Shown here in pieces: positions 8,224 through 48,992 of a stretch of DNA of 48,992 nt; position 1 is the first letter of the stretch, and each line of letters opens with the position of its first letter. The position numbers and the translations under genes are program-made. The DNA comes from Prochlorothrix hollandica PCC 9006 = CALU 1027 (GTDB lineage: Bacteria; Cyanobacteriota; Cyanobacteriia; Prochlorotrichales; Prochlorotrichaceae), in NCBI RefSeq assembly GCF_000332315.1, contig NZ_KB235937.1, positions 1 through 48,992 on the forward strand, read 5' to 3'. Under the pieces are notes generated by a model. It was given only the letters and a program-made list of their open reading frames with translations, did not search any database and had not been told where the DNA came from.

Positions 8224-8519
8224 GTAATTATTCAGGGGTCCACAGGAGAATGAGGGTTTTATTTGGTAGGGGCAATCCCCCCGTGGTTGCCCCTACCGAT
8301 TTTGGTAGGGGTAATCCCCCCGTGGTTGCCCCGACCGATTTTGGTAGGGGCAATCCCCCCGTGGTTGCTCCGGCTGTGGGTCACCAAGAGGGTCGGCACG
8401 GGGGCAAGAACCCTACCCGAAGTCGAGGGTTCCCAGGTGCAATGCATCCCGTTGATCCAGATCTGACCGGCGATCGTGGGGCTGAAACCCTACTAACTTC
8501 GTCCCCCCTGAATAGTTAC
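8224..8519. mobile_element. MITE-like repeat C, copy 1, with 9-bp target duplication
   Basis: A 296-bp non-coding element with inverted ends GTAATTATTCAGGGG / CCCCCCTGAATAGTTAC. It is flanked by AATATAAGG at 8215-8223 and again at 8520-8528, a perfect 9-bp target duplication. It contains a 39-bp tandem unit repeated three times (GGTAGGGG starts at 8265, 8304 and 8343). A second copy lies at 22437-22802. Open frames across the repeats are not genes. Confidence 0.9.
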
Positions 8520-22279: not shown

Positions 22280-22314
22280 GAACGTGGGAAATGGGGAATT
22301 GGTCAAGCAGAATT

Positions 22315-22385
22315 GGTCGGGCGAAGCTAGTCGGGCGAAGCTAGTCGGGCGAAACTGGTCAGGCGAAGCTAGTCGGGCGGAATTA
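22315..22385. repeat. 14-bp tandem repeat upstream of trmD
   Basis: GTCGGGCGAAGCTA-type units are repeated about five times with drift, beginning about 36 bp before the preferred trmD start. Confidence 0.85.
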
Positions 22386-22436
22386 GTCAGGAAAACAGGA
22401 TGTCAGCCATAATTCAAGGGATATCATCCTGATACC

Positions 22437-22802
22437 GTAATTATTCAGGAGTCCACAGGAGAATGAGGGTTTCAGGCTCTAGAAAACAGACCTTAGGCGA
22501 TTGGAGAGGGTCCATTGCACTGGGGTGGGTTCACCGATTTTGGTAGGGGCAATCCCCCCGTGGTTGCCCCGGTTGTGGGTCCCCAAGAGGGTCGGCACGG
22601 GGTCGAGAACCCTACCCGAAGTCGATGGTTCCAAGGTGAAATGCATACCGTTGATCCGGCTCTGACCGGCGATCGTGGGGCTGAAACCCTATTCACTTTC
22701 CCCCTGAATACAGCAATCCTAAATCAGTGGTAAGGATCTCGATGGCTGCAACCCTTTGGGTGGTGTGACACCACATGAACCCTTTAGGACTGCAGTAGTT
22801 AC
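22437..22802. mobile_element. MITE-like repeat C, copy 2, interrupted by repeat B
   Basis: Shares ends and most of its inside with copy 1 at 8224-8519, but has only one 39-bp unit and a different segment near 22475-22535. Its right terminus is split: CCCCTGAA, then repeat B (22709-22797), then TAGTTAC, exactly completing the CTGAATAGTTAC end seen in copy 1. No target duplication is visible around this copy. Confidence 0.87.
22709..22797. mobile_element. MITE-like repeat B, copy 2, nested in repeat C
   Basis: 89 bp including TA at each end; termini CAGCAATCCTAAATCAG... / ...CTTTAGGACTGCAG. Shorter than other copies because the inner GC-rich hairpin is reduced to GGTGTGACACC. Inserted at TA inside the right end of repeat C. 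Confidence 0.9.
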
Positions 22803-30683: not shown

Positions 30684-30980
30684 ATGTCCCCCCTCAACCT
30701 CACCGCCCTGGCCCTGGGCCTTTTCTTGGCCTTGATGACCTTGCTCTTTATCCTGCGCATTGTCCTCACTTGGTATCCCCAGGTAGAACTCAAGCGTTTT
30801 CCATTTAGTCTGATTTTTCTGCTGACGGAACCCTGCCTAGCCCCTACTCGCCGGTTAATCCAACCCTTGGGAGGGGTAGACATCACTCCCATTATTTGGG
30901 TCGGACTGGTGAGCTTAGTGCGGGAATTTCTCCTCGGTCAGCAAGGGCTATTAACGTTGACCCTTCGCCACATGGTCTAA
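30684..30980 (+). CDS. YggT family membrane protein (Ycf19-like)
   Basis: Small membrane protein (98 aa from the ATG at 30684; the earlier in-frame TTG is less likely). The family pattern is visible: a first hydrophobic helix LALGLFLALMTLLFILRIVLTW, the loop containing FPFSLIFLLTEPCLAPTRR, then GGVDITPIIWVGLVSLVREFL as the second helix. YggT/Ycf19 proteins are conserved in cyanobacteria and plastids and have been linked to thylakoid organisation and cell division-related processes, without a defined biochemical role. The gene stands alone, downstream of repeat D. Confidence 0.85.
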   Translation: MSPLNLTALALGLFLALMTLLFILRIVLTWYPQVELKRFPFSLIFLLTEPCLAPTRRLIQPLGGVDITPIIWVGLVSLVREFLLGQQGLLTLTLRHMV

Positions 30981-31099
30981 AACCAACCCTGGGGCAGGCC
31001 AGAGACACGGCTAGTCTCGGGTAGTGATCCAAACGTAGTGAAGTCGCAACGGTACGACAAGGTTTACAGCCTGTCTTTTCACGACCTAAACAGCACTAG

Positions 31100-31297
31100 G
31101 GCACCTCGAAAAATCCAAATTCTTGCCCCTATACAGCAACTCTAAATCAGTTGTAAGGATCTCGACGGCTGAAACCCTTTGGGTGGTGTGCGCCCTCCGG
31201 GCGCACACCACACGACCCATTTAGGACTGCTGTACCAACGCAAGAATAGGAGTTTTGGCGGGCGGCGAAGCCACTCGCCAAAATTAATCGAGGTGCC
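31100..31297. mobile_element. MITE-like repeat A, copy 3, interrupted by repeat B
   Basis: Outer ends GGCACCTCGA / TCGAGGTGCC with flanks CACTAG (31094-31099) and CACTAC (31298-31303), a 5-of-6 duplication. The inside is split by repeat B at 31132-31234. Removal of B with one TA restores an A element of the normal length (about 97 bp). It ends 18 bp from the accC stop. Confidence 0.9.
31132..31234. mobile_element. MITE-like repeat B, copy 4, nested in repeat A
   Basis: 103 bp including both terminal TA. The A sequence reads ...GCCCCTA before it and CCAACGCAAG after it; in copy 1 of A the same place reads GCCCCTGTGCCAACGCAAG, so one TA of this copy is the target and the other is its duplicate. 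Confidence 0.93.
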
Positions 31298-31315
31298 CAC
31301 TACCCTTTTTCGGGA

Positions 31316-32680
31316 TTACTTCTTCTTTTTGTAGGCCCGATCCATAAACTGCTCCACAAAACTGGTGTGGAGATCCCCGGCAATAAATTGGGGATCCTCC
31401 AGGATTTTTTGGTGGAAACCGATGGTGGTGGGTAAACCGGTAATGGCACACTCCCGCAGGGCACGGCGCATCCGTTGAATGGCCGCGTCACGATCGGCCC
31501 CCCAGACAATAATCTTGCCAATCAGGGAATCGTAATAGGGGGGAATGTCATAGTCCGTATACACATGGGAATCCATGCGCACCCCAGGACCACCGGGGGG
31601 TAAATAGCCACTGATGCGGCCCGGGTGAGGACGGAAATTATGTTCGGGATCCTCAGCATTAACCCGACATTCAATGGAATGGCCCTTAAGCTGAATGTCC
31701 TTTTGTCGCCACCGCAGTTTCTCTCCCTGGGCAATGCGAATTTGCTCGGCAATCAGGTCTAAACCCGTCACCATCTCTGTGACAGGATGTTCCACTTGGA
31801 TCCGGGTGTTCATTTCCATAAAGTAGAAATTACCCCCGCTATCCACCAAGAACTCAATGGTTCCAGCCCCCACATAGTTAATGGACTTGGCCACCTGCAC
31901 CGCTGCATGGCCCATTTTTTGGCGCAACTTCTCCGTCAAAAAAGCGCTGGGAGCTTCCTCCAATAGCTTTTGGTGGCGGCGCTGAAGAGAGCAGTCCCGT
32001 TCCCCCAAATGGATCACATTGCCAAAACTATCCGCCAGAATTTGAAACTCAATGTGGCGGGGTTGTTCAATAAATTTTTCGATATACAGCCCCGGATTGC
32101 CAAAAGCCGCATCAGCTTCCCCTTGGGCCGCTAGAAACAGGCGGTTCAGATCCGATTCCTGACGCACAAGGCGCATTCCTCGGCCTCCACCCCCAGCGGT
32201 GGCTTTGATCATCAGGGGATACCCGATGCGCTTGGCCAGTCCCTGGGCCTCCTCTTCACTTTGCACCAGGCCATCACTGCCCGGTACCGTGGGCACCCCC
32301 ACAGCAGTAACCGTGGCCTTAGCGGTGGACTTGTCCCCCATGGAGCGAATGGCTTCGGGGGTGGGACCAATGAAGGCGATGTGGTGATCGGCGCAGATTT
32401 CTGCAAAGCGGGCATTTTCCGACAGGAACCCATAGCCGGGATGGATGGCACCCGCATGGCGAGTCAGGGCAGCGGCAATGATATTGGGAATGTTTAAATA
32501 GCTTTTGGCGCTGGGGGGATCGCCAATACACACGGCTTCATCGGCCAGTTGGACGTGGAGAGCATGGCGATCGACCGTGGAATGCACCGCAACGGTTGCA
32601 ATCCCCAATTCTTCGCAGGTTCGCAAAATACGCAGGGCGATTTCCCCACGATTGGCCACAAGAATTTTAGAAAAACGCAT
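31316..32680 (-). CDS. accC: Acetyl-CoA carboxylase biotin carboxylase subunit
   Basis: ATP-grasp enzyme (454 aa from the ATG at 32680) that carboxylates biotin on AccB, the first step of fatty-acid synthesis. It begins [18 protein letters not shown], the classical start; an upstream in-frame ATG would add 18 residues. Visible landmarks: [13 protein letters not shown], the Gly-rich loop [12 protein letters not shown] (about residue 160-170), [12 protein letters not shown] (about 230), and the catalytic [14 protein letters not shown] (about 288-301). The length is standard. It stands alone, not next to accB, as is usual in cyanobacteria. Confidence 0.97.
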
Positions 32681-36642: not shown

Positions 36643-37860
36643 AACAATTAATAGAGATATTGATACAGATCAGTCAACGATCGACCTAACCCTAACCCTT
36701 GCCCCTGGTCCAAACCTGAGCCGCAACACTAGATCCCTGGGAATAGGACAACTAAACCAGGACAGATAAACCAGGACAACTAAACCAGGACAACTAAACC
36801 AGGTCAAACCTAGTCCCTTCAGCCATTCCAGCCTACTACAGCACTGGTACTTCCCAACAGCCGCCCCGTCTGGGCGGACTCATTTAGCGGATCATCTTGC
36901 GGATCATCTCGCGGATCATCTCACGGATCATCTCAAAGAAGCGCTGTAGCGGGGGTCCAGAACCCCAGCCTGGATCTTGCGAGATCACGGACAGGTCAAG
37001 CCATGCCCTCATACAGCCATAGTCTGATCCCTAGGACTGCTTGATGAGCCTGTTCTCTGCCCGACCGCGATCGTCTCCAGGGGATTCCCCAAGAGACCCA
37101 GGATCACCCCCCAGGATCTCCCCCCTGCCTGACCCATGGGTCTCAAAGACTCCTCCGGCTGTAGGATACCCACCCCAACGCTCTACCCACCGTGAACCTG
37201 ATGGGGGGGGAAGCCCCCTGCCCCCGCCTAGGATCCATTGCCCTTAGACTAGGGTTCATAACCTTAGATTCAGCCTTAGATTCAGCCTTAGATTCAGCCT
37301 TAGATTCAGCCTTAGATTCAGCCTTAGATTCAGCCTTAGATTCAGCCTTAGAATCCAGAGCTGACCTGGGTCGTGGCGAACTGGGTCGTGGCAACAGTTT
37401 GCCCACGGTGGGAGGCGTTTAGTCAAGCTGGTGTCGTCAATGTAGCCGACTCAGTTAGCCTAAACCGGTTAGCCCCTATTCCAAAGCCTAAGGAAAAAAG
37501 TCGAGGAAAAGAGGTACCCATAGCTTAAGTTTATGTGCTCATCTAACCCGTTTTCCGAAGGTCTTGTGGCACACTATAGAAAAATATATCGGCTGAAACG
37601 TTTTAATCTGAGTCTTAAGGTGGCATGAACCTTAGAGTTTGACCGTCCTATGGGGTAGGCCCACCCCCATAATCTGGAAAGCCCCCTAATCTAGATAAAA
37701 CGCTCAGGTCAAGTTATATCCAAGCTCAAGGTTTTACCTAGGTGATGGACAGATCTAGCGAAGAAAACGGGAAGGGGCGATGGGACTAGCCTGAATCTCC
37801 CCCATTACCTCCAGTTCTGGAGCCGTCGTTTAAGTTGTCTCGTGTCTAGTGGATGGTTGA
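36643..37860. other. 1.2-kb gene-free region with several minisatellites
   Basis: No gene is supported on either strand. Contents: AAACCAGGACAACT units about 36753-36815; GCGGATCATCT 14-bp units about 36887-36940; the exact 12-bp array at 37262-37345; a small hairpin TATGGGG/CCCCATA near 37653-37676. The last part (37560-37860) should contain the leader and promoter of the kinase gene; TATAGA near 37575 is a possible -10 without a convincing -35. Confidence 0.6.
37262..37357. repeat. 12-bp tandem array, seven exact copies
   Basis: CCTTAGATTCAG starts at 37262, 37274, 37286, 37298, 37310, 37322 and 37334 without a single change; an eighth unit at 37346 is diverged. The period is a multiple of three, so every frame through it stays open and gives artificial SKAE or SALD repeats. 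Confidence 0.97.
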
Positions 37861-42755: not shown

Positions 42756-43369
42756 ATGAAAGTACGATACCAGTATCGAATTTATCCGACACCGCAACAG
42801 GTCAAAGGGCTGAATCAGCTTTTTGGGTGTTGCCGAGTTGTGTACAACGATGCCCTGGCGATTGTGGGGTCAGTGCCGCAGGGCGAGAAATGGCCTAGCA
42901 ATATCCGAAAAGACTTTCTGCACAAGACCACGACCCAGCTAATCCACGAAAATCAAGTGGTGGTGTTGGAGGATCTGGCGGTGAAGAATATGCTTGGTAA
43001 TCGGAAGTTGGCACGGGCCATCAGTCAGCAGGGTTGGGCACCGCACGAACCATGTGTGAGGCCAAGGCCAACAGGGTTAATGATCGAGAGGTCAGGATCA
43101 TCAGTCGGTGGGAGCCAACCAGTCAGATCTGTTCTGATTGTGGCTTTCGGTGGGGCAAGGTTGCTCTATCGGTTCGTTCCATCCTCTGTGTGAGTTGCGG
43201 AACCGAACATGATAGAGATGGTAATGCCGCCAAAAATATCGAAAAGTCTGGGTTGGGGCTAACCCAAGACTCTAAATGGACAAAGAACGGGCGTAAGACC
43301 AGGATGTCTGGCAATCCGACTGCTTTGTCTAGCCAGCCGTACAGCGAACAGCTTGGACTGTTCGCCTAG
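42756..43369 (+). pseudogene. tnpB: Decayed TnpB (RNA-guided nuclease of IS200/IS605 elements)
   Basis: The N-terminal part MKVRYQYRIYPTPQQVKGLN and the RVVYNDAL segment are typical of TnpB. After about 49 residues (GEKWPSN) the sequence jumps to IRKDFLHKTTTQLIHENQ, so roughly half of the usual 370-400 residues is missing, including the region of the first RuvC aspartate. The second RuvC residue (Glu in VVVLEDLAV) is present. A frameshift near 43035 separates AISQQGW from the rest, which continues in another frame with RIISRWEPTSQICSDCG, the zinc-finger cysteines and HDRDGNAAKNI, the third RuvC region. It ends LGLFA at 43369. Not a functional nuclease as it stands. Confidence 0.9.
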
Positions 43370-43409
43370 CCGGAGAATCCCCGCACCTTTAGGTCGGGGA
43401 GCATGTCAA
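43370..43409 (+). ncRNA. Probable 3' end of an omega-RNA scaffold / right-end hairpin
   Basis: TnpB guide RNAs overlap the tnpB 3' end and run to the right tip. Here the stop codon is followed by a 9-bp stem with one bulged C (TCCCCG-C-ACC with GGT-CGGGGA, 43378-43400) and then GCATGTCAA. The guide part would be the host sequence from 43410 on. The 5' limit of such an RNA is not visible. Confidence 0.5.
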
Positions 43410-43604
43410 TGTGGCAAGAATTAATGCGGGCGCGGCGATCGGCCATTCTCTTGCAAAAGAGCTGTGACCGAGAGCGGGGACTGACCGATCGCATGGCCGA
43501 AAGTCACGTTCAACTGCAACAAAACTATTTGCGGTTAATTCAGGAACAGTAAAGCGGTTCATCGTTGATCACACCCGTTCGACCCACCGCTCTACCGTTC
43601 TGCC

Positions 43605-48637: not shown

Positions 48638-48673
48638 GGGGATATCGGGGGACTCTACTGTGGAGTATCAACG

Positions 48674-48992
48674 TTGACATGCTCCCCGACCTAAAGGTGC
48701 GGGGATTCTCCGGCTAGGCGAATAGTCCAAGCTGTTCGCTGTACGGCTGGCTAGACAAAGCAGTCGGATTGCCAGACATCCTGGTCTTACGCCCGTTCTT
48801 TGTCCATTTAGAGTCTTGGGTTAGCCCCAACCCAGACTTTTCGATATTTTTGGCGGCATTACCATCTCTATCATGTTCGGTTCCGCAACTCACACAGAGG
48901 ATGGAACGAACCGATAGAGCAACCTTGCCCCACCGAAAGCCACAATCAGAACAGATCTGACTGGTTGGCTCCCACCGACTGATGATCCTGAC
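48674..48992 (-). mobile_element. TnpB element, copy 2, right end (cut by window border)
   Basis: The 319 bp are the reverse complement of 43091-43409 with a single difference noticed (near 48725, a synonymous change in the Leu of LGLFA). The right tip TCAA falls at 48674-48677 on the minus strand, and the host flank reading outward begins CGTTGATACTCC. The rest of the element lies beyond the window. Confidence 0.93.
48714..48992 (-). CDS. tnpB: TnpB, C-terminal part (partial at window end)
   Basis: The last 92 residues of TnpB in one open frame: VRIISRWEPTSQICSDCG, the four zinc-finger cysteines, and HDRDGNAAKN with the third RuvC aspartate, ending LGLFA. Nothing visible here is broken, so this copy may be the intact parent; the decisive N-terminal part lies outside the window. 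Confidence 0.85.
   Translation of the reverse strand, partial: VRIISRWEPTSQICSDCGFRWGKVALSVRSILCVSCGTEHDRDGNAAKNIEKSGLGLTQDSKWTKNGRKTRMSGNPTALSSQPYSEQLGLFA

Follow-up and report, generated by a model that had tools for sequence, protein, structure and literature searches.

Three nested mobile repeats between two convergent genes of Prochlorothrix hollandica

Overview of the site

Between two genes that converge, the window (the whole stretch of 48,992 nucleotides of Prochlorothrix hollandica PCC 9006 DNA analysed here) carries three stacked mobile repeats, all non-autonomous, which we hold, with a probability of about 95%, to have arrived in the order C, A, B. MITE B (103 bp) sits within MITE A (99 bp), and A in turn lies in the right end of the 81-bp repeat C. 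The genome that carries the window counts 5,646,343 bases on 13 contigs, in an assembly with short gaps (runs of N). The stack itself is non-coding. From 31095 to 31304 the sequence reads, in this order: ACTA; GGGCACCTCGAAAAATCC...TTGCCCCTA; TACAGCA...TGCTGTA, which is B; CCAACGCAAG...ATTAATCGAGGTGCCC; ACTA; and CC. The features of the site, by window position, are the following:

ends at 30980; convergent toward the stack; small membrane-protein-like ORF
31020..31098; + strand; positions 1-79 of repeat C, the outermost layer (nhmmer match to the C model, E=7.4e-26)
31095..31098; strand not applicable; left copy of the 4-bp target duplication of A, ACTA (read directly)
31099..31131; - strand; first part of MITE A, with the end GGGCACCTCGAAAAATCC (the joined 99-bp A aligns without gaps to intact copies)
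31132..31234; + strand; MITE B, 103 bp, counting the duplicated TA at each end (matches other copies)
31235..31298; - strand; second part of MITE A, with the end ATTAATCGAGGTGCCC (gapless alignment; end pair as in an IS5-family element elsewhere)
31299..31302; strand not applicable; right copy of the 4-bp target duplication of A, ACTA (read directly)
31303..31304; + strand; last two bases (CC) of C, past A (comparison with intact C copies)
ends at 31316; convergent toward the stack; biotin-carboxylase-like gene

A repeat search of the window finds both parts of A, as well as the entire B, again at other places in it.

Insertion of B into A

B is nested in A at a TA and is the younger of the two at this site, a reading supported by an excision test, by many empty sites, by a single junction and by a difference in divergence. 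Removal of B together with one TA leaves a 99-bp A that aligns without a gap over 99 of 99 positions to intact A copies. The A restored in this way is up to 89.9% identical to the sampled copies and 92% identical to the best copy genome-wide (C1:822383-822481), and the A profile gives a single full-length nhmmer match that spans the join (E=9.3e-25). The first-pass annotation had described a split A copy whose parts match other A copies, with the TA and B as the sole extra material, and the excision bears out both statements. Its predicted empty site, CCCCT-N-TA/TG-CCAACG, is likewise present in other A copies, which read CCCCTGTACCAACG or CCCCTGTGCCAACG; compared with these, the joined A of the window has gained one TA. 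A genome search returned, among the matches listed, about 100 other places with an uninterrupted CCCCTGTACCAACGCAAGAATAGG or close variants of it. The right junction between B and A (24 nt) has exactly one occurrence in the 5.65-Mb genome, and when up to 3 mismatches are allowed there are 102 matches, the others among those listed being uninterrupted A sites. B is 98% identical to its nearest other copy, as against 92% for A.

MITE A and its IS5-family ends

Chance is excluded as the source of either MITE family by the counts of their ends: the 11-base end of A, GGGCACCTCGA, occurs 291 times in the genome, against once for its reversed control, and the 16-base end of B, ATTTNGGACTGCTGTA, 433 times against none. 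A is 99 bp long, ends in GGGCACC...GGTGCCC, and is present in roughly 150 copies. We counted target duplications in 40 full copies, taken from 1.2 Mb of contig C9 and from the window. The duplication is 4 bp long in 25 of them and 2 bp in two, while 13 have none and not one has 6 bp. The near-perfect 6-bp duplication earlier ascribed to the window copy is a misread boundary; the actual duplication is exactly 4 bp (ACTA). A subgroup of IS5 follows the YTAR target rule, which the duplications of A (TCTT, ACAC, ATTG, etc.) do not fit.

A 19-base A end, used to scan public genomes, yielded 26 stretches from cyanobacteria and some other bacteria. In two cyanobacterial assemblies, GGGCACCTCGA ends enclose an IS5-family transposase (NF033581): L192:3452-4714 (1263 bp) and L171:2-1280 (1279 bp). 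The ends of the L192 element form the same asymmetric pair as those of A. Searches of the window's genome, the assembly of which has gaps, with the L192 transposase protein and with the NF033581 family model gave no match. No autonomous A element was found in the sampled stretches, where the TIR pairs 0.5-4 kb apart enclose ordinary genes or lie in an A copy interrupted by a TnpB-like gene. As the transposase was not found in the window's genome, the assignment of A to the IS5 family rests on ends common to elements of other organisms. A is a MITE with IS5-family ends, and its mover was presumably an IS5-family transposase that this genome no longer has. One other genome holds relatives of A at 71-84% identity, and another a 115-bp element with A's ends.

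The split copy (C9:146237-148222, which is L112 6237-8222) has a TAGA duplication and is interrupted by about 1.9 kb with the TnpB-like gene, assigned by eye from the sequence to the IS200/IS605 type. MITE-like pairs of GGGCACCTCGAAAAATTC ends were also seen at L177 1175-1334, L189 4664-4864 and L181 310-450, in records of Nitrosomonas, Gallionellales and Hydrogenophilales that are far from cyanobacteria.

MITE B and a resident IS630 element

More than 400 copies of B are present in the genome. The window copy is up to 98% identical to others, and 104 of 119 copies have a TA at each end. A DDE_3 search of the window's genome points to four places, each with an element of ca. 1.2-1.3 kb; the two complete copies measure 1177 bp. 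The ends of these elements, TACAGCAGTCCCAAATGGGTCGT and TACAGCAGTCACAAGTCAGTTGTAAGG, are close matches to those of B. An uninterrupted ORF is present in two of the four IS630 copies, those of stretches L074 and L075, so that a transposase to act in trans is present in the genome; the L074 protein matches DDE_3 as well as NF033545, the model of the IS630 family. From these likenesses of sequence, the best reading of B is that of a relative of the resident IS630 element with an internal deletion. It was not found among 38 other genomes of the class, the class being the closest rank at which relatives were searched.

In L074 the intact IS630 (908-2084) is flanked on both sides by B-like copies (324-426 and 2193-2295), each within about 600 bp. 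Another B copy (L087 1141-1272, or C12:170640-170771) has a 13-bp direct repeat, TTCCCAGAAGATA, at its flanks, which is longer than the expected TA.

Repeat C, the outermost layer

C is an 81-bp repeat, GGTAGTG...CACTACC, with intact copies that end in ...AGCACTACC; the 1.25-Mb sample described below holds 15 matches to it. The match covers 31020-31098, right up to the boundary with A, and the window reads AGCACTA / A / ACTACC, which places the insertion point of A 2 bp from the right end of C. The C model was built from four seed sequences, the window copy included; an independent blastn comparison gives up to 94% identity over 71 bp between the window copy and other C copies. The order C, A, B at the window follows from the insertion of A itself in the end of C. 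C, which the first-pass annotation had not noticed, thus appears to be the oldest layer of the site, as judged mainly from the left-hand match, since only 2 bp of C are kept beyond A. Another C copy (C9:215724-215903) has a B in the same terminal TA, followed by CC. An 8-bp duplication, CTTTTCTG, borders the C copy at C9:186456, and the duplications of C may possibly be 8 bp in length.

History of the site and alternative explanations

The stack was most probably built in three steps. The 81-bp C would already have been in place when A (99 bp, with IS5-family ends) inserted near its right end and duplicated ACTA, presumably moved by an IS5-family transposase that the genome has since lost. B (103 bp) would then have entered at a TA inside A by cut-and-paste of the IS630/Tc1-mariner kind, with duplication of the TA, and was probably moved in trans by the transposase (ca. 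377 aa) of the resident IS630. Such a history would call for no host function, the stack lying in non-coding DNA, where repeats accumulate.

Two other explanations deserve weighing against this sequence of independent insertions. A composite of A and B could have formed elsewhere and moved in as one 200-bp unit by the ends of A: the ACTA that flanks the whole composite fits, by itself, an A moving with B inside, and the 1.9-kb split copy with its TAGA flanks demonstrates that long material between A ends exists. However, the exact B/A junction is found once in the genome, and a genome search for a second full-length composite found the window copy alone. A composite that is itself a multi-copy unit, the case that the first-pass annotation had set against its own reading, was looked for genome-wide and did not appear; since the junction is single and the listed near-matches are uninterrupted A sites, the composite is not such a unit. 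Moreover, the two-step history at the site requires no lost donor site, and we reject movement in one piece, which seems extremely improbable, as the likely reading. Scarcely more credible is that the nested repeats are kept because they serve the two convergent genes as a terminator hairpin or an RNA element. Their position between these genes would suit that role, and single A and B copies fold far better than shuffled sequence on either strand (z -4.9 to -7.1), but strong folding is to be expected from the long inverted repeats of any MITE, and the copies are dispersed across the genome. An Rfam search near the site gave no match above the gathering score, all nearby matches being far below it.

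Frequency of nests and relative age of the families

Nests were counted in a sample of 1.25 Mb, made up of 1.2 Mb of contig C9 (as stretches) and the window. It contains four cases of A in B (three of them at the extreme ends of B), one of B in A (that of the window), one of B in B, and one of B in C. About 95% of the A and B matches fall outside long ORFs. If insertion into non-coding DNA were random, ca. 1.8 cases of A in B and 1.3-2.1 of B in A would be expected in the same stretch. The counts might be taken to mean a mutual attraction between A and B, in which one family prefers the other as a target so that nests arise above chance. Insertion limited to non-coding DNA predicts nearly as many, however, which makes the excess small, and the window case was preselected; mutual targeting is therefore unlikely. 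Random insertion into non-coding DNA accounts for roughly the number of nests seen, with no need for preferential targeting. The more general proposition, that the two unrelated families of IS5-like and IS630-like MITEs are preferred landing sites for one another beyond the non-coding effect, with stacks that grow where insertion is harmless, strikes us as more doubtful still.

Insertions of A into B with an exact duplication are found in L045 (CTAA), L049 (AATC) and L050 (GTCA), and at C9:126840 (TACA), C9:384034 (ATCA) and C9:850662 (TGTA); A probably lies in B at C9:268015 as well. In L030 (TATA) and L059 (ATTA), a B lies within the duplication of A. The earlier statement that B is younger than A consequently holds for the window site, on the evidence of excision, empty sites and divergence, but not as a general order, as A inserted into B in at least six other places. 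Evidently, the A and B families were active in overlapping periods.

Relation to known systems

The nearest counterpart of B is RUP, a 107-bp pneumococcal repeat with TA targets that is ascribed to IS630-Spn1 (PMC2229807). B resembles RUP and its IS630-Spn1 in being about as long (103 versus 107 bp), in its high copy number, in having ends like those of a resident IS630, in its TA target, and in inserting into other mobile elements (PMC2229807, PMC3049150); B belongs to another phylum, though, and its ends match a different IS630; the likeness drawn here is one of the way of working. Insertion of one repeat into another has been reported among the BOX, RUP and SPRITE repeats of S. pneumoniae (PMC3049150); compared with those clusters, the present site allows duplications, empty sites and three successive layers to be read in one place. 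MITEs are well known in cyanobacteria (PMC3542288, PMC10969869). Among them are Nezha, for which ISNpu3-like elements are the proposed mover, and the MITEs of Anabaena sp. 90, which are classed as type II, that is, with no matching IS in the genome (PMC3049150, PMC3542288, PMC10969869). A and B share with these a cyanobacterial host and a mostly intergenic location, the likeness to Nezha being one of description. A resembles the type II MITEs of Anabaena sp. 90, whereas B, matching a resident IS, is of type I. ISY100 of Synechocystis belongs to the Tc1/mariner/IS630 family, and its purified transposase promotes transposition in vitro (PMC2170065); this element and the resident IS630 with ends like those of B are both cyanobacterial members of the IS630 family, yet they are different elements, likened here by family.

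Literature searches on nested MITEs, on cyanobacterial IS630 MITEs and on Prochlorothrix returned nothing on the elements described here. Such nesting has been described before and, with hundreds of copies in one genome, is to be expected; the window offers an ordinary, well-preserved example that leaves the understanding of how such elements work unchanged. Its value is that the relative ages of three mobile repeat families can be read cleanly from a single site, where two of them also show their empty sites and target duplications. Nests of A in B and of B in A could help to put bursts of transposition in sequence, in a cyanobacterium that keeps the transposase of B, seemingly without that of A.

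Other repeats of the window

The window contains repeats of other kinds. An inverted repeat (43091-43412 and 48671-48992), 99% identical over at least 322 nt, reaches the window's end; a longer dispersed repeat is present in two copies, at 8224-8499 and 22437-22698 (166 nt at 92%, plus flanking pieces); and short tandem arrays with units of 12-17 bp are located at 37250-37367, 22288-22399 and 36745-36814.
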